DNA of 43,279 bases from a virus, in the IMG/VR virus record IMGVR_UViG_3300037502_002139, positions 1-43,279 of that record; one strand, given 5' to 3'. The notes below the pieces were generated by a model, which worked only from the letters and a program-made list of their open reading frames with translations, ran no database searches and was not told the DNA's origin. Both the position numbers and the translations under genes were made by a program. Shown one piece after another: positions 3,041 to 40,824 of the stretch (positions are counted from its first letter, which is position 1; the number at the start of each line of letters is the position of its first letter).

Positions 3041-3763
3041 TTAAATATCTAATACCAACTGCTCTAGTTCCTCTTTATCTACTCTTTGATACTCACTTGT
3101 TTCTAACCCTATTCTTCTGAACATAAACCATCCCGGCGTATACCATTGACTGATACAATCTTCCTGATCCATAGATAATGCATTCTTCACTTCGCATCTT
3201 GCTGGTATACCTAAAATGGAGAGCTGAACAAAAGCCATCAGTAATGCGTTCGTATCTAAGTCAGTGCAATACACTTCCAGTTGAGTTTGAGGATTATATC
3301 CTTTCTCTTTCATGGTTTCAGCTAGTGCAATGATCATCCCTCCAGCGCCGACAGTAGGTTCATAAAATCCTATCTTCTCTTTTTTCTTTAACTGGTCCTC
3401 GTCAAAAGTGAGATCCGCCATAAGTTTTGATACATGATAAGGTGTGAAAAATTGCCCCAGGTGTTTATTGCTGAATTCGCCTTCCATGTATATTTCACCT
3501 AGCCAATCATGGGATTGGTATTCAAACAACCGGATGAGAAGAGCTAGGCATTCACTGAACTTATGCATATCATTGCCGTACTTATCTACCAGCTTCATGT
3601 ACGCTACTTCTCTTTCATGTCTTAAATGCGATCGGTCCGTTACATTAGCAAGTGCGTAAGCCATCGCATGAATCCAATCGAAGTAGACTTCCCATCGATT
3701 GAGATGACCGGGGAATGACTGGAGTACCTTAATCAACGATATCTTTACATCGTTTCTATTCAT
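3041..3763 (-). CDS. N-6 DNA methylase-like protein, catalytic motif not seen
   Basis: A 240-residue protein with the HsdM-like signature LGQFFTPYHVSKLM and a SAM-site motif EPTVGAGGMII (about residues 130-140), then a CTDLD acidic motif. These place it in the N6-adenine methylase family. The NPPY/F motif IV expected ~60 residues downstream is not present; the region reads ALSMDQEDCISQWYTPGW. It may bind SAM without methylating, or use a divergent motif. It overlaps the DnaD-like gene by four bases, typical for these replication operons. Confidence 0.75.
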   Translation of the reverse strand: MNRNDVKISLIKVLQSFPGHLNRWEVYFDWIHAMAYALANVTDRSHLRHEREVAYMKLVDKYGNDMHKFSECLALLIRLFEYQSHDWLGEIYMEGEFSNKHLGQFFTPYHVSKLMADLTFDEDQLKKKEKIGFYEPTVGAGGMIIALAETMKEKGYNPQTQLEVYCTDLDTNALLMAFVQLSILGIPARCEVKNALSMDQEDCISQWYTPGWFMFRRIGLETSEYQRVDKEELEQLVLDI

Positions 3764-5567: not shown

Positions 5568-6165
5568 TAGCTACACCTCGATCACTCAAGTACTCCCACT
5601 TGTAGCCCAATACTGTTTTTCGTGTTCCTTTACATACTGCGCTGATATTTGCGTCTTTAACTCCAAAAGCTTTTTCAGCTGCTCTTATGGATGGATAAGT
5701 TCGAATAACTCTGTTTGTTGATATATCAATTTGACATACTGGTTTTGCTTTTTTGATTGCAGAGCGAGCTATTTTCGTTCCGTAACTATTGTTATAAGAT
5801 TGAGTACACCACTCTAGGTTTTTGTAAGTGTTATTCATTTTGTTCTCGTCAATGTGATTTACCATGGGTAGATCGTTTGGGTTAAAAACAAATGTTTCGG
5901 CTACAAGCCTGTGAACGGTTTTGGTAGTTTGGACTTTATTCATAGTCAAAGCCACTATATAGTATCCATTTTTTCCTAACCCTTGAGATAACAACTGACC
6001 TTTATAGAATCTGGTTTGATTATTATTCGTTTTGACATACCGATCGACACTACGAACTTTACCTAAGTTTGAAACTTGGTAAAAATTCTCGTATCCTTTT
6101 ACCCAATCCCATACCTCATTGTTTAGGTTGAGTGGTTCTTTCTTCAAAGAGCTCGCTTTGTTCAT
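5560..6165 (-). CDS. HNH homing endonuclease (NUMOD4-HNH-NUMOD1 type)
   Basis: A 201-residue free-standing homing endonuclease. The NUMOD4 segment is clear (VWDWVKGYENFYQVSNLGKVRS-like, near residue 20), followed by an HNH core with VHRLVAETF, NHIDENKMNN and NLEWCT, and a C-terminal DNA-binding repeat (SIRAAEKAFGV, NISAVCKG). Such enzymes are selfish: they cut an intronless or insert-free allele so that repair copies them in. ATG at 6165 follows GAGGTGCAAGAAC. It overlaps the recT 3' end by 50 bases and splits recT from its nuclease partner. Confidence 0.9.
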   Translation of the reverse strand: MNKASSLKKEPLNLNNEVWDWVKGYENFYQVSNLGKVRSVDRYVKTNNNQTRFYKGQLLSQGLGKNGYYIVALTMNKVQTTKTVHRLVAETFVFNPNDLPMVNHIDENKMNNTYKNLEWCTQSYNNSYGTKIARSAIKKAKPVCQIDISTNRVIRTYPSIRAAEKAFGVKDANISAVCKGTRKTVLGYKWEYLSDRGVANV

Positions 6166-6886
6166 GTTCTTGCACCTCATTTTCTTGACCGACTTCTGTT
6201 GCAAATCCTTCGATAATGTCGTCCGGTTCTTGTTTATTCTGGAAGTCTGACAGCAGATCGGTTGTTGTGTCGTCTTCCTCTATCCTCTCAGCCTGTCTAA
6301 TGACTTCCTGAGGGCTTTTATCGTCTTCGGTATACATTGCCCCTAGAGAGTTCGGAAACGCTTCTCTCAGCGCATTAACGACCGCTACTTTACGGATCAT
6401 ATTAGCCGGCTGTTGCTTCCATGTGGCTTGTGATTTTGAAAACTCGTCATACGCAATTTCAACATACGTTGGAACATCCCGATCATCTCGGTAGACTTCA
6501 CACCAGGCGCCGATAATGGTTTCATTCTTCATCTTGATTGCCCCATCACGCTTGACCATATCGCCATCTTTTTCGACAATGATTCCAGCTTTAAATCCTT
6601 TGAAGTTCGGATTTGATTCAGCACGTTTCATGAACGCTTCTTTTGATGTAATCATTTGTGCCGGAGAACCATTAAATTTGACCAAGTACGCTTCGTTTAA
6701 GAACGGGTTCAGCTGTGCATATTGGCATAGCTTGATGAAATTGACTGCTTCTTCTCCTGTAATCTTTGCGTTCCCCTTAGTTACAAACTGATTGACCACT
6801 GACGGGCTTAATTCAACTTTCTGACCGCCTGACTGATACGACACGGCATATTTCTCTTCTTTCTTGGTTGTTACTTCATTAGTCAT
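6116..6886 (-). CDS. recT: RecT-family single-strand annealing protein
   Basis: A 256-residue recombinase of the RecT/Bet superfamily that anneals complementary single strands, working with the exonuclease at 4755-5567. The core (GEEAVNFIKLCQYAQLNPF, AYLVKF, then GAWCEVYRDDRD and a RKVAVVNALREAFP helix) is typical and complete. The C-terminal 50 residues are acidic and Gln/Glu rich, the usual SSB-contact type tail. Start ATG behind GGAGGAATTGAA. The 3' end lies within the HNH gene, so its final residues may have been re-formed by the insertion. Confidence 0.92.
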   Translation of the reverse strand: MTNEVTTKKEEKYAVSYQSGGQKVELSPSVVNQFVTKGNAKITGEEAVNFIKLCQYAQLNPFLNEAYLVKFNGSPAQMITSKEAFMKRAESNPNFKGFKAGIIVEKDGDMVKRDGAIKMKNETIIGAWCEVYRDDRDVPTYVEIAYDEFSKSQATWKQQPANMIRKVAVVNALREAFPNSLGAMYTEDDKSPQEVIRQAERIEEDDTTTDLLSDFQNKQEPDDIIEGFATEVGQENEVQEHEQSELFEERTTQPKQ

Positions 6887-13408: not shown

Positions 13409-13588
13409 TCAACTCGTTTCATTTATTTTTGATTCTATCATTTCTTTTAACTCTAGTAAATCTTCTAAGTCTGCCTTCCGTATGAATGTTTTAGCTGTAG
13501 AGCGCTGCTTGACATAGGTGCGGCGCTCTCTATTCTTATCATCATATCGTTTTTGAGCCTTTATTTGTGCTTCGGTTAATTTAGCCAA
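13409..13588 (-). CDS. small basic protein of a mobile-element family (59 aa, TTG start)
   Basis: A 59-residue highly charged protein with LTEAQIKAQKRYDDKNRERR and then a KQRSTAKTFIRK core and an acidic C-terminal helix. This pattern recurs in small proteins on plasmids, phages and chromosomes of Enterococcus, Staphylococcus and Lactobacillus; its function is not established to my knowledge. The TTG at 13588 lies behind AAGAAGGGAAG and overlaps the upstream gene by eight bases. Confidence 0.65.
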   Translation of the reverse strand: MAKLTEAQIKAQKRYDDKNRERRTYVKQRSTAKTFIRKADLEDLLELKEMIESKINETS

Positions 13589-14075
13589 GATAATACTTCC
13601 CTTCTTTTAACTCAATTCCGTATTCCTTCAGCTGAGAGCTTGCGACTGTAGTACCGTCTATTATAAATTCTAATTCATATTCGTGATCATGATAGATTCC
13701 GCTGGCATCTGCTACTGCTGGACGTTTATGATCAGACACTCTGACTTCTTTTCCTTCATTATTGATGATGTAGTGGCTGCTGCTCATATGTGACTTTTCA
13801 ACTTTATACCCAGCTAATTCAAGTGCTTCTTTTAACAGTTCATTTTTAGCCAATTTAGAAAAGCTGATGTCGCTCATTCCGATTAGAAATCCGTCTAAGC
13901 CTGATTCGTCTTTAGCGCTGATCATATCGTGAGCCGCTTGATATTCTTCTTCTGCATCGTCGTCCATTTCGATCCCATCATAGTATTCATTAACTGCTTC
14001 GTCCAGTGATTCATGTAGCAGTTTTCTTTCAAAGCTCATTTCTAGGTCATACACTTCATTTTTGAATTCAATCAT
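13581..14075 (-). CDS. hypothetical accessory protein (164 aa) with its own promoter
   Basis: A 164-residue acidic protein starting MIEFKNEVYDLEMSFE; the ATG at 14075 follows AAAGGAGCGGATAACA, whereas the longer reading starts inside the promoter. It contains an Asp/Glu-rich stretch (DGIEMDDDAEEEYQ) and a later SHYIINNEGKEVRVSDHKRP segment. No domain recognised. It is transcribed from the promoter at 14109-14137, separate from the late operon, so it is likely expressed in the lysogen. Confidence 0.65.
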   Translation of the reverse strand: MIEFKNEVYDLEMSFERKLLHESLDEAVNEYYDGIEMDDDAEEEYQAAHDMISAKDESGLDGFLIGMSDISFSKLAKNELLKEALELAGYKVEKSHMSSSHYIINNEGKEVRVSDHKRPAVADASGIYHDHEYELEFIIDGTTVASSQLKEYGIELKEGKYYLG

Positions 14076-14108: not shown

Positions 14109-14137
14109 ATTATATAGTACATGACTATATAAGGCAA
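14109..14137 (-). promoter_or_regulatory. strong promoter of accessory block with internal palindrome
   Basis: TTGCCT (14132-14137), a 17-base spacer and TATAAT (14109-14114) on the minus strand. An 8-bp inverted repeat, TATATAGT-N5-ACTATATA (14111-14131), fills the spacer and overlaps the -10, so it looks like an operator. It lies between a terminator and the 164-aa gene. Confidence 0.8.
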
Positions 14138-14202: not shown

Positions 14203-14670
14203 TTAAAATAGCGACAGCTGCATCGGATGATCACTAACTTCTTTTTTGACTTTAAAGTTCTTCAATCGTTCTTCAGCTTCTCTGCTGACAAGGGCAGGGT
14301 CTTTTCTTTCCGGAAGAAAAACAGCTGGGAAGAACGGATTGCTGAAGAGGTCTACCGGTGCAGTCATGTAATTCTGCCGATCAATTTCAAATCTTTGCTT
14401 TAATATATCTGGATTAATTGGTTTGTTCTTATCAGTTTCAATTATTTTTGGTAACCAGCATCCAGTCGGTGAGTATTCTTTCGTGATAACCTCTAACTTA
14501 CCGAACCCCTCACTCCATTCATAGATCATCTGACTATATAAGTAAGTGTAGTGGTAATTCCAAGCCATACGCTCGACTTCATCGGTTAGAGGTTCTCTAT
14601 CTCTTTTCTTTTTAGAGTTCCACGCTTTAACAAATTTCGGTTGAGTATCTCCATACGCTTTCCACCACAT
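14203..14670 (-). CDS. unknown protein with C-terminal sliding-clamp motif (QLSLF)
   Basis: A 155-residue protein starting MWWKAYGDTQPKFV, rich in Trp and Tyr, ending in MQLSLF. QLSLF is the canonical pentapeptide (QL[SD]LF) by which bacterial polymerases and repair proteins bind the DnaN beta-clamp, and its place at the extreme C-terminus after a flexible, charged stretch fits exposure. The body is not recognised. It is flanked by terminators on both sides and starts after AGGAGCGATCAGT, apart from the lysis operon. It may target host replication or recruit itself to the clamp. Clamp binding is inferred from the motif only. Confidence 0.65.
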   Translation of the reverse strand: MWWKAYGDTQPKFVKAWNSKKKRDREPLTDEVERMAWNYHYTYLYSQMIYEWSEGFGKLEVITKEYSPTGCWLPKIIETDKNKPINPDILKQRFEIDRQNYMTAPVDLFSNPFFPAVFLPERKDPALVSREAEERLKNFKVKKEVSDHPMQLSLF

Positions 14671-14691
14671 ACTGATCGCTCCTATGTAAAG

Positions 14692-14720
14692 ACCCCCACC
14701 TTAAGTTGTGAGGGTTGTCT
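14692..14720. terminator. terminator between lysis operon and accessory gene
   Basis: ACCCCCAC / GTGAGGGT (14692-14699, 14708-14715) pair as an eight-pair stem with one G-U in the minus-strand RNA. On the plus strand it is followed by TGTCTTTTT, on the minus strand by CTTTA, so it may stop both directions. It lies 42 bases after the amidase stop. Confidence 0.6.
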
Positions 14721-14757: not shown

Positions 14758-15903
14758 TTAGAATCTGTTCTGATTTAATCTGCGCTGCAATTCTTTTACT
14801 ACTGCACTGTTTGTTCTACTGATAGCACCAGTTACAGGCGTTCCCATTCGTCTTTGCAAGGCTCTTAATGTTAATGGCCCAAACAGTCCGCCACGTTGGT
14901 TAGACGGAAGATTTAAGCGTCTCTGCATCTCTCTGACGACCATTGAGCCGCCAGTTCCAAACTGGACACTAGGGATGTTACGGGTAATCTCTGTACGTTG
15001 CTGTCCGCCAATTGCTCCAGTGACTTGTGTGCCTAAGACTTGTTGCAGTCGTCTAGTTGTAGCAGGCCCGAATGATCCGTCAATCGCTAGTTGAGGAACT
15101 TGTGGTCGAGGTGTAGACGACGGTTTTACTGCTGGTTTAGGTGCTGGACCGCTGACAGCGATTGGAATCTCAATATCCTCTCCTACTCTGATTAAATCAG
15201 GATTGGCCAGTTCGTTATGCTTCACGAGTTCAGCAACGGTGGTGTTGTATTTCTTAGCAATAGCGCTCAACGTATCTCCGGACTGAACTGTATAGCTGTG
15301 GCCTAACGGTTTAGCTGGTTTTTTAGCTGGTTTAGAATTTTCGACCTTAGCATTCAGGATTGCTTCAACTAGCTTTTTAGCATATTCATCTGTGCGTTGA
15401 AGCATGATGTCTGCGTCAGTTCTGTTGGTTCCGAAACCAAGTTCTAATAGACGATATGTGATCCCGTTATTTCTGGCCATGTTGACGTTGAACAAGTTAT
15501 TTCTTCCACTGATGCCTTGATGTCCTCTGTGAGTGAATCTAAGGCCTACCATGCTGCCGATAGCGTCTCTGATTTGTAAGTCCATATCATCTGGGGAGTA
15601 GTCAGAGTGGATAATGACATGCCCACCTCTAGCTTGGTTGGTGAAGGCATCAAAGTGGAACTCGACTACTTCATCTGCACCGTGCTCATTGACCAGTTGG
15701 ACTAAGTTCCCGTGATTAGACACCTTTAGTGCATCATAGAAGATGACTTTAGCATCTTTAGGAATATACTTTTTCATCAGTGGGAACAGATTCTCCACCA
15801 TGTACCGATGCTCGCCTTTGGTGATGAAACCAGTTGCTCCTGGATCGAACGTTCCGTTCCTTTGGTTCCCGTGACCTGCGATAAGTAGATATGTTTTACT
15901 CAT
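14758..15903 (-). CDS. endolysin: N-acetylmuramoyl-L-alanine amidase with LysM and PG-binding repeats
   Basis: A 381-residue cell-wall hydrolase. The N-terminal Amidase_3 domain (about 1-185) shows the zinc ligands in LLIAGHGN, the EFHFDAF motif and a late LLELGFGTN. A LysM motif (about 202-245, YTVQSGDTLSAIAKKYNT) follows, then two similar peptidoglycan-binding-like blocks (DGSFGPATTRRLQ and GGLFGPLTLRALQ). There is no signal peptide, so export depends on the holin encoded next to it. It cuts the amide between muramic acid and the stem peptide to release phage. Confidence 0.93.
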   Translation of the reverse strand: MSKTYLLIAGHGNQRNGTFDPGATGFITKGEHRYMVENLFPLMKKYIPKDAKVIFYDALKVSNHGNLVQLVNEHGADEVVEFHFDAFTNQARGGHVIIHSDYSPDDMDLQIRDAIGSMVGLRFTHRGHQGISGRNNLFNVNMARNNGITYRLLELGFGTNRTDADIMLQRTDEYAKKLVEAILNAKVENSKPAKKPAKPLGHSYTVQSGDTLSAIAKKYNTTVAELVKHNELANPDLIRVGEDIEIPIAVSGPAPKPAVKPSSTPRPQVPQLAIDGSFGPATTRRLQQVLGTQVTGAIGGQQRTEITRNIPSVQFGTGGSMVVREMQRRLNLPSNQRGGLFGPLTLRALQRRMGTPVTGAISRTNSAVVKELQRRLNQNRF

Positions 15904-16169
15904 TATTTATCATCCTTTCTTAACGCTACTACACTATCATATAACCCACTCGCTCCCGCACCGCTTAACAGGCCTGCTAGTCCGTACAGGAACAGGTCTT
16001 CCCCGCCTGCTAATGCAAATACGATACCGACTGCAATTCCTAAACCGATACTTATAAATGGCAACCACCGTTTATTTAGATCCGCCGTCTTAAATAACTC
16101 CACAAAAATAGCGATGACCGGAGCCATCACCACTGCTAGTGCGACCGCTTCATTTAGTACTGCTTCCAT
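15903..16169 (-). CDS. holin (88 aa)
   Basis: An 88-residue protein with three hydrophobic stretches (about residues 8-24, 36-53, 60-75), an acidic/neutral N-terminus and a charged C-terminal tail (RKDDK). This is the typical layout of Gram-positive phage holins. It overlaps the amidase by one base and would time lysis by forming membrane holes. Confidence 0.85.
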   Translation of the reverse strand: MEAVLNEAVALAVVMAPVIAIFVELFKTADLNKRWLPFISIGLGIAVGIVFALAGGEDLFLYGLAGLLSGAGASGLYDSVVALRKDDK

Positions 16170-37582: not shown

Positions 37583-38067
37583 GACTCAACCTCCTCTGCG
37601 AATGGCCAGAAACGTTCGTCGTAGTCTTTGATTTCTTGTTCGGTTAAGTACCCTTTATTCTTGTATACTACTTTGCTGTAAGCGTTAATGACTTCTCCCT
37701 CAGAGTTTTTGGTTAAAAGGAAACAGTCGTTTTTGTCTTTAACTTCATACTTCTTCTCTTCCACCTCGTAGCCGTCAAGCCATGCACGTGCGAATAATTC
37801 AGGATTGTCATATATCCAATTCTCAGTAACATTCCCTCCCGTGTTCTTGACGTTTGAAAAAATTAGCCAAAAAGCTTTTGACAAACTACACTCATCTTCT
37901 TTTGCGTTCTCTATCCACTCACCCACAAACTCCGGCACAACCACTTTCTCCGGTTCGTCCAGTTGGTCGATAATTTCAAAAACATCCTCTAACCTTACAT
38001 GGTACGCTCCTTCGTTTTCTTCCCATGCCGCCGCAATTAATGTATCTTTCAACTTTCGTTTATTCAT
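37579..38067 (-). CDS. DUF1642-like phage protein (copy 2)
   Basis: A 162-residue relative of the protein at 454-969. The N-terminal ~45 residues are identical; the rest differs but keeps FARAWLDGYEVEEKKY and the EQEIKDYDERFWPFAEE end. The right copy is followed by ssb and the late regulator, the left one by small unknown genes. Function unknown. Confidence 0.75.
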   Translation of the reverse strand: MNKRKLKDTLIAAAWEENEGAYHVRLEDVFEIIDQLDEPEKVVVPEFVGEWIENAKEDECSLSKAFWLIFSNVKNTGGNVTENWIYDNPELFARAWLDGYEVEEKKYEVKDKNDCFLLTKNSEGEVINAYSKVVYKNKGYLTEQEIKDYDERFWPFAEEVES

Positions 38068-38581
38068 CTCATTTACACCTCTTTCCCGTTTATTTCCACG
38101 ATGTCAGATATTTTTATGGTTGTTGGGTGATGACTTAAATTTCCTTCTAAAATAACTTTGATTGTCGTCTCTGATTCATATATATTATCTAAACCATTAG
38201 CAGGTCTAGCTTTAATCAAAGACCCTCCGTAGTTAACAAGTAGTTTATCTTCTAACTCTCGTTTATCCATTCCGTTCACTCCTTAATCTAAAAACCGATG
38301 CTTTGCTTCTAATGTGGTACAGGCCAGCTGTATGATTATTATGGACGATACGCTTAATCTTAATTCCGGTATGACTAGCGATAATAGGTTTAAGCCGATA
38401 ATTAACACACTGGTATAAGCTACAAGGTCTAACATTTTCAGCCTGTTCTCAATTGCCTTTTTAAATGAGCTTGTTAGCCCTTTAAGTTCTTCTTTGTCCA
38501 ATTTAGCCATATAGCGATTAGACACTAATATGCACGTCTGAATGACAATACTTGGGATAATACTAGATAGCTGGTTAATAA
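37934..38581. repeat. 648-bp perfect direct repeat, right copy
   Basis: Identical to 836-1483, same orientation. Upstream of the copy (higher coordinates) the genes differ: HNH here, a two-HTH protein at the left. On a circular molecule the two copies would be ~6.18 kb apart across the window ends, and recombination would delete the whole right-hand helicase module. Confidence 0.95.
38073..38270 (-). CDS. hypothetical early protein (65 aa), copy 2
   Basis: Identical in sequence to the protein at 975-1172, including its ribosome site. It lies wholly in the repeat. Function unknown; its retention in both copies suggests that the repeat is recent. Confidence 0.65.
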   Translation of the reverse strand: MDKRELEDKLLVNYGGSLIKARPANGLDNIYESETTIKVILEGNLSHHPTTIKISDIVEINGKEV

Positions 38582-38588
38582 CACTCAC
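38283..38588 (-). CDS. small membrane protein (101 aa), copy 2
   Basis: Same protein as 1185-1490 except for Val instead of Ile at residue 3, at the repeat edge. The GTG start lies next to the stop of the HNH gene (GGAGTGAGTG), so the promoter-proximal junction has been rebuilt in a new context. Confidence 0.7.
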   Translation of the reverse strand: MSVINQLSSIIPSIVIQTCILVSNRYMAKLDKEELKGLTSSFKKAIENRLKMLDLVAYTSVLIIGLNLLSLVIPELRLSVSSIIIIQLACTTLEAKHRFLD

Positions 38589-39199
38589 TCCAATTCTCTA
38601 AGTTTAATATTTGCCGTGACTTCCAGATCAGTCATGCGGTAAATCGCTTCGTTCAACTCCGGGTAGTCCGTTGTCTGCTTACGTTTCCCAGCTGTCGTTA
38701 CTGCATTCTGATTGACCATATATAAATTATCCAATCGGCAATTCTGACGGTTGCCGTCCTTGAACAAAACGACATGCCGTTCCGGTATCTCTCCGTACGC
38801 TTGCTCCCACACATACCGATGCTTCTTCACCCACACATTAGGGTCAGCTATTTTAATTTCCGTCCATCCTTCAAGCACTCGCTCACTCCCCACCGGTGAA
38901 CGAGATTCAGTGTGCCCTTTCTTGTACCACCCCTTCTCACTGCCGGGAGTGCGCAGACCTTTCATGCCTTTATTCCACGGCTCGAACCCTTTTGTAAACT
39001 GGGTGGAGGTGCTTAATTTCCCTCTCATCCCAGTCTTGATGCCTGCCCGTGTCATCCGACTAGCTATAGACCGAACCGTTCGGTTTGTGCCGAAATGTTT
39101 ATTGAAAGTATCTGCGACTTCCTCAATCGGCTTTCCTGGTGCAATCTGCCGGAGATACTCGATTTCCTCGTCTGTGTAATGCCTGTACCTTTGCGCCAT
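38585..39199 (-). CDS. HNH endonuclease with HTH N-terminus
   Basis: A 204-residue endonuclease. The N-terminus is a Myb/HTH-like DNA-binding segment (HYTDEEIEYLRQIAPGKPIEEVADTFNKH); the C-terminal half carries an HNH core (KHRYVWEQAYGEIPERHVVLFKDGN, then CRLDNLYMVNQN). The family is common as mobile endonuclease genes in phage early regions. ATG behind GGAGGGGTAACAC. It borders the 648-bp repeat and may have taken part in spreading it. Confidence 0.85.
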   Translation of the reverse strand: MAQRYRHYTDEEIEYLRQIAPGKPIEEVADTFNKHFGTNRTVRSIASRMTRAGIKTGMRGKLSTSTQFTKGFEPWNKGMKGLRTPGSEKGWYKKGHTESRSPVGSERVLEGWTEIKIADPNVWVKKHRYVWEQAYGEIPERHVVLFKDGNRQNCRLDNLYMVNQNAVTTAGKRKQTTDYPELNEAIYRMTDLEVTANIKLRELE

Positions 39200-39655: not shown

Positions 39656-39884
39656 GTTTCTGCCTCCTCACTCGATTAGTCATTGACTTTGCATTGCGTG
39701 TGTGGCTATTTTCAGCCTGTTTCAGCTCGTTTTCCATTGTCTGAATGTCTTTATACCCGAGATACCATTTAAGGCTCTGAGGGGCTAAATACCCCCATAT
39801 TCCGTGTGATTCGTCTGAGTAACGTAAACCGGGTAACTCTGGGTCTGTGCCTTGTTTGTAAAAGTGATATTTGATGTTGGTCAT
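39633..39884 (-). CDS. YHFY-type small phage protein, paralogue 2 (83 aa)
   Basis: Diverged relative of the protein at 1870-2130: KYHFYKQG start, GIWGYLAPQSLKWYLGYKD block, and Arg-rich end. It starts four bases inside the methyltransferase gene. Function unknown. Confidence 0.65.
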   Translation of the reverse strand: MTNIKYHFYKQGTDPELPGLRYSDESHGIWGYLAPQSLKWYLGYKDIQTMENELKQAENSHTRNAKSMTNRVRRQKRAHSRYS

Positions 39885-40486
39885 GAGTCGGCTCCTTTCA
39901 AAGCTTCACTTAATATGTGTTCTCCAACTGCAGGTAATACACAATTTCTAAGCACTTGCCTTTTGTTCGGCAATTTATACCCAGATAATTCATACCCTAA
40001 CGCTTCTTGTAGTTGTGGTATTTGAGCAGCTCTTAGTTTAGGTCTCACAAAATCACGTTTTTTAATATCAAAATTACACCAGAATTTATGTCGATCTAAT
40101 TCAACGTCTGGTTCTATCAACGGTTTGTAGTAAGGATTGACGTTTTCGACTAACCATTTACCTTTAAAGTTATACTTCAAAAAAATGATTTCCTGATACA
40201 GTTTCATATCTGGATAAACTGCTTCCACACCTCTGTATCTCACGCCTATATTTTGTCTGAAACTACTGTGTGTTTGGCACGGTGGACTTGCCCAGATAAA
40301 ATCAAATTCCTTAAAATGATTAAGCAGATATTCGTGAGCGTCTGTTACTATTACCTCATCATTAGGAAATAAAGTTTTGTAAACTAAAGCTATGTTCTCG
40401 TCATATTCAACAGCTGTTATTTCGTGTTCATCGCCCCACGATTTCCTATTCCCGCCAATTCCGGCATATAGATTCAATATTTTCAT
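39881..40486 (-). CDS. small C5-cytosine DNA methyltransferase
   Basis: A 201-residue Dcm-like enzyme. Motif I is LNLYAGIGGNR at the N-terminus, motif IV is WASPPCQTHSS with the catalytic Cys (~residue 75), motif VI is WLVENV, and a final NCVLPAVGEHI is motif X-like. The region for target recognition is very short compared with 300-400-residue relatives. No restriction gene is near, so it probably protects phage DNA from host restriction. ATG at 40486 starts within GGGGGAAGAGGG. Confidence 0.88.
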   Translation of the reverse strand: MKILNLYAGIGGNRKSWGDEHEITAVEYDENIALVYKTLFPNDEVIVTDAHEYLLNHFKEFDFIWASPPCQTHSSFRQNIGVRYRGVEAVYPDMKLYQEIIFLKYNFKGKWLVENVNPYYKPLIEPDVELDRHKFWCNFDIKKRDFVRPKLRAAQIPQLQEALGYELSGYKLPNKRQVLRNCVLPAVGEHILSEALKGADS

Positions 40487-40824
40487 CCCTCTTCCCCCTC
40501 CTTCACTTCGCATACATCCACTTGTTCTTCAACTTGTGCCTTCAGCAATCGCTCGCTTGAATTAGAATACGTCACGATACTGCTTTGCTGCTTGTACCTT
40601 TTGTTAATTTCACGTTGGAGATACCACTTTGCTTTTTCAAGGTCTTCTAGGCTATTACCTTTCTTGTCAGATCTCGTGATGTATTTAACCACGTTTCCCA
40701 GATGAAAGTTCAGTTCGAACGCTTCGATGATGTCAATCACTTCCATCTTGTCCGACTGGTAATGATCGGGATGGTTCACGTTACTGTGATGTCTGTGCGT
40801 TCCGTGATTTAGTCTGTGGCTCAT
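40483..40824 (-). CDS. DUF3310-family phage protein
   Basis: A 113-residue protein with the DUF3310 signature: NVNHPDHYQSDKMEVIDIIEAF and GNVVKYITRSDKKGNSLEDLEKAKWYLQREI. It is a frequent early phage protein (sometimes called nucleotide kinase-like) with unproven function. The ATG at 40824 follows AAAGGAGCGAAAAAAA; an upstream ATG at 40896, overlapping the previous gene, gives a 137-residue alternative. Confidence 0.85.
   Translation of the reverse strand: MSHRLNHGTHRHHSNVNHPDHYQSDKMEVIDIIEAFELNFHLGNVVKYITRSDKKGNSLEDLEKAKWYLQREINKRYKQQSSIVTYSNSSERLLKAQVEEQVDVCEVKEGEEG

Follow-up and report, generated by a model that had tools for sequence, protein, structure and literature searches.

The window analysed here, a virus record of 43,279 bases from IMG/VR, encodes an A118-like temperate siphophage. 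An integrase, an A118-type holin and a LysM amidase endolysin are present, and the portal protein has 45% identity to those of Listeria phages A118, A500 and 184. The closest phage found is a prophage of Alkalibacterium thalassium DSM 19181. The endolysins of the two are 90% identical, and from this one shared gene the host is probably Alkalibacterium or a close relative, a Gram-positive bacterium. The replication genes in the window encode a DnaB-type helicase, a DnaB_2 replication (initiation) protein, RecT, SSB and a PD-(D/E)XK protein. Neither a DNA polymerase nor a clamp was recognised among the window ORFs examined, so the phage would depend on host DnaN, and the clamp that its proteins encounter would be that of the host. 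The A. thalassium genome that carries the closest prophage has an ordinary DnaN.

Two features elsewhere in the window can be noted. The early region has a diverged direct duplication of ca. 845 bp (649–1493 and 37747–38591, 91.7% identity), in which genes for 68-aa and 101-aa proteins and part of a 162/171-aa gene are present twice. Two DNA methyltransferase genes, of the N6 (PF02384) and C5 (PF00145) families, are short for their families (3041–3763 and 39881–40513), and the C5 gene matches only the N-terminal part of its family.

The gene of interest encodes a protein of 155 aa and follows the lysis genes on the minus strand. In the direction of transcription, the region contains:

15903–16169, minus strand: holin of the A118 Hol118 type, by family match
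14758–15903, minus strand: endolysin (Amidase_3, LysM and PG-binding), the gene shared with the A. thalassium prophage
14692–14720, minus strand: moderate hairpin between the endolysin and the 155-aa gene, lacking a T-run (−14 kcal/mol, z −2.2)
14679–14683, minus strand: ribosome-binding site AGGAG, 8 nt 5' of the ATG
14203–14670, minus strand: gene for the 155-aa orphan protein (ATG at 14670, TAA at 14203–14205), from the ORF and its codon bias
14206–14220, minus strand: codons for QLSLF, a canonical clamp-binding motif (residues 151–155), directly before the TAA
14171–14200, minus strand: intrinsic terminator directly 3' of the 155-aa gene, with an 8-bp stem (14200–14181) and a T7 tail (−13.4 kcal/mol, z −3.2)
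13581–14075, minus strand: neighbouring downstream gene for a 164-aa orphan protein, with a promoter TTGCCT-17-TATAAT at 14137–14109

The 155-aa ORF is a real gene. Its codon score was 0.24 per codon, compared to −0.23 ± 0.09 for shuffled sequence, and was the highest of the six frames; the remaining frames of the region scored zero or below, and codon usage in the gene is phage-like. The encoded protein has a mass of 18.6 kDa and a pI of 8.5, with 6 Trp and 8 Tyr. A basic body rich in Trp and Tyr is compatible with nucleic-acid contact, but is no proof of it. A single-sequence AlphaFold2 model had a pLDDT of 39, too low to interpret; it was coil from about residue 137 onward, at a pLDDT of only 25–37.

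The preliminary description placed this gene behind the lysis cassette and between two terminators. The position holds, and so does the downstream terminator. The upstream hairpin at 14692–14720 is doubtful – it has no T-run and was not called in the terminator scan, and on the plus strand, where a T-run is present, it is weak (z −0.7). It is at most a weak or leaky terminator. The stretch that separates the endolysin from the 155-aa gene yielded no sigma-A-type promoter. Since the upstream hairpin is unconvincing as a terminator and no promoter was found, the simplest reading is that the gene is probably transcribed by read-through from the lysis operon. The 164-aa gene, which is preceded by the strong terminator and served by a good promoter of its own, is probably a separate transcription unit. 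Its product matched no family, and viral relatives were not found. The spacer and −10 element of its promoter overlap a palindrome, ATATAGTcatgtACTATAT, a possible operator.

Searches for relatives of the 155-aa protein were extensive. As had been claimed, it belongs to no recognisable family: scans of Pfam, PHROGs, NCBIfam and PADLOC, up to E 1–10, gave no match. Nothing homologous was found in the plasmid collection, in a scan of GTDB contigs, in the sister phage, among 32 records of related phages, or in ca. 800 genomes from the class of the likely host. IMG/VR contained no homologue when searched with the whole protein and with each half, and DNA patterns for PTGCWLP and MWWKxYG retrieved 97 loci there, 0 of them homologous. 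The few matches that did appear are attributed to chance. These were a gamma-tubulin complex component in the PDB (E 0.21), a crAss-like phosphoesterase gene that was the one match in the phage collection searched to E 10 (E 0.1), and matches in 27 genomes of the family and 395 + 399 genomes of the order and class, including an amidase and a BlaR1-like protein. In some searches and in the fold prediction the query was 14203–14667, without the first Met; the outcome was unaffected. At the search depth used the protein is an orphan, and no catalytic or DNA-binding domain was recognised in its body.

What distinguishes the protein is its tail. QLSLF forms exactly the last five residues, as the preliminary description stated, and has the pattern Q-aliphatic-x-[LM]-[FL]. 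By chance a C-terminal QLSLF is expected at 1.1e-6 per protein, or ca. 1.3e-4 over the 120 ORFs in the window that encode 60 aa or more. Among the 2,833 distinct ORFs of all loci examined, QL[SD]LF was seen four times against 0.06 expected, always near the C-terminus. The other three proteins are A. thalassium PolC, from the genome with the closest prophage, which ends in NQLSLFDI (sequence GLPDENQLSLFDI), and two PcfK-like phage proteins. Strong clamp-motif matches elsewhere were confined to the host PolC, PcfK-like proteins and one non-canonical ORF of 55 aa. The QLSLF tail is unlikely to be a chance occurrence. A further match, QSELF, lies in the C-terminal tail of the RecT/Bet protein (residues 243–247; window 6116–6886). 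It may be a weaker clamp motif, yet is likely chance, because QxxLF-like matches are frequent in the window.

The claim that QLSLF is a canonical clamp motif is borne out by published work on Bacillus subtilis, in which the same sequence is the C-terminal clamp-binding motif of PolC, conserved across PolC proteins, and a PolC QLSLF peptide with a free carboxylate binds DnaN with a Kd of 3.8 uM (PMC12309361). The highest-affinity clamp motifs have the consensus QLxLF, and in Pol II and Pol IV the motifs are C-terminal (PMC11139829). Proteins of mobile elements often carry a QLxLF at the C-terminus, among them transposases (PMC4549789) and PcfK-like proteins.

The slot behind the lysis cassette is a variable site for cargo genes, since the nearest prophage has unrelated genes in the corresponding place. 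Behind the shared endolysin, the A. thalassium prophage (L067:7271–8520) has a DUF3800 gene and, on the opposite strand, a YolD-like gene whose match is weak, below the Pfam cut-off. These unrelated genes support the earlier suggestion of an accessory location, of the kind used by lysogenic-conversion genes. No protein with a clamp motif was found behind the lysin in the other A118-like phages searched.

The 155-aa protein can be compared with several known proteins directed to the clamp. Gram-positive PolC has the same pentapeptide at or next to its C-terminus, but the orphan protein has no polymerase domain, is only 155 aa long and shows no similarity to PolC beyond the motif. SocB of Caulobacter has been reported to act through the usual clamp-binding motif at the DnaN pocket, and RipA of the Rosmer system in Streptococcus pneumoniae at the same pocket. 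Both are toxins with antitoxin partners, whereas no recognised antitoxin is adjacent to the 155-aa gene. The region was checked for an operon of the SocAB or RipAB type; the 164-aa gene that follows lies beyond the strong terminator, with a promoter to itself, and neither the 155-aa nor the 164-aa protein matches a PADLOC family. Gp168 of the Staphylococcus phage Twort is likewise a phage protein aimed at the clamp. It has been reported to bind in the DNA channel of the clamp and not in the motif pocket (PMC11139829). Transposases of insertion sequences, for example the IS1634 family, also carry a C-terminal QLxLF (PMC4549789), but the orphan protein has no transposase domain, and identity as a transposase was rejected for want of any Pfam, PHROG or NCBIfam match. 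PcfK-like proteins (PF14058), found in phages and Lactobacillales, are small mobile-element proteins in which a linker is followed by a clamp-type motif at or near the C-terminus. Their bodies are unrelated to that of the orphan protein. The orphan matched nothing in Pfam at E values as high as 10, and profile comparison with hhalign (probability 0.9%) aligned the last 22 residues only, so that membership of this family was rejected as well.

Our favoured reading, in which we have somewhat better than even confidence, is that the phage cargo protein binds host DnaN through its QLSLF tail and that its body acts at replicating DNA. The gene would be cargo of an A118-like temperate phage, whose host probably belongs to Alkalibacterium or is closely related to it, and would be expressed late, via read-through from the lysis operon. 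The free C-terminal QLSLF would enter the hydrophobic pocket on DnaN in which PolC also docks. This would tether the body, ca. 140 residues of aromatic and basic character, at replicating DNA, of the host or of the phage, where it would exert its own DNA-directed activity. The binding to DnaN, the late expression by read-through and the activity of the body are the parts that we infer. Several lines of evidence argue for this reading: the exact consensus at the extreme C-terminus, at an expectation of 1.3e-4 in the window; a likely host whose PolC has the identical motif and whose DnaN is ordinary, together with a phage in which no clamp of its own was recognised; the affinity measured for PolC QLSLF and the frequency of QLxLF tails in mobile-element proteins; and the DUF3800 and YolD-like genes in the sister-prophage slot. 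It is weakened by the lack, in the collections searched, of a homologue that could show conservation of the motif, by the lack of a recognised catalytic or DNA-binding domain, and by a structural model that at pLDDT 39 is unusable, also as a guide to the exposure of the tail. Motifs of five residues are also easily produced by mutation, which counts against it.

The tail could instead serve as a decoy, occupying the DnaN pocket, excluding PolC or repair polymerases and slowing replication of the host or a competing phage. The identity of the motif with that of PolC would suit such a role, and SocB, RipA and Gp168 are precedents. However, B. subtilis DnaN holds QLSLF with no more than micromolar affinity, and a B. 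subtilis strain with QLSLF placed in DnaE is viable and unharmed (PMC12309361), so a small decoy would require high levels or extra contacts. The same two results weaken the proposal in the preliminary description that the protein competes with host polymerase. The phage itself also requires DnaN, and the antitoxins known for both SocB and RipA have no evident counterpart here. We regard this role as unlikely, and a plain decoy acting by its tail alone as less likely than docking. We think it quite unlikely that an undescribed temperate-phage factor bearing a copy of the host PolC tag seizes or redirects the clamp and so blocks replication of the host or of competing phages.

Fortuitous occurrence of QLSLF in a protein with a different function, such as a late structural accessory or one linked to lysis, is rather unlikely. 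It would agree with the lack of homologues showing conservation and with a site that follows the late lysis genes and has no promoter of its own that was found, but the expectation in the window is ca. 1e-4, and stays below ca. 1% even if one allows generously for other motifs that might have been reported. An antitoxin-free function in defence or superinfection exclusion, sensing or blocking the replication of an incoming phage at the clamp, would suit the cargo position and the other accessory genes at this site in the sister prophage. It is very unlikely, given no match in PADLOC and no promoter found that is suited to expression in a lysogen. The earlier idea that the protein protects the lysogen gained no supporting evidence. 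Docking of a DNA-acting activity fits best among the roles that had been suggested.

If the protein does bind DnaN, it would be a new small protein that plugs a temperate phage into the replisome of its host. Unrelated mobile-element proteins – the orphan, PcfK-like proteins and transposases – share one and the same clamp tag as their ending, and a C-terminal QLxLF may for this reason be a cheap pointer to uncharacterised phage genes with a role at the replication fork.

The PcfK-like proteins (PF14058) merit attention in their own right. The literature searched contained no paper that connects PcfK to the sliding clamp. Those encoded by A118-like phages and by genomes of Lactobacillales (L121:7931–8404, L124:7006–7401 and L233–L238) all end in a clamp-type motif after a variable linker. 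The motifs include QLDLF, QLSLL, QISLF and QLELF, and all 8 sequences retain the Gln and the main Leu. Because conservation is visible here, the PcfK-like proteins are a better-supported candidate family of clamp-binding proteins than the 155-aa protein.
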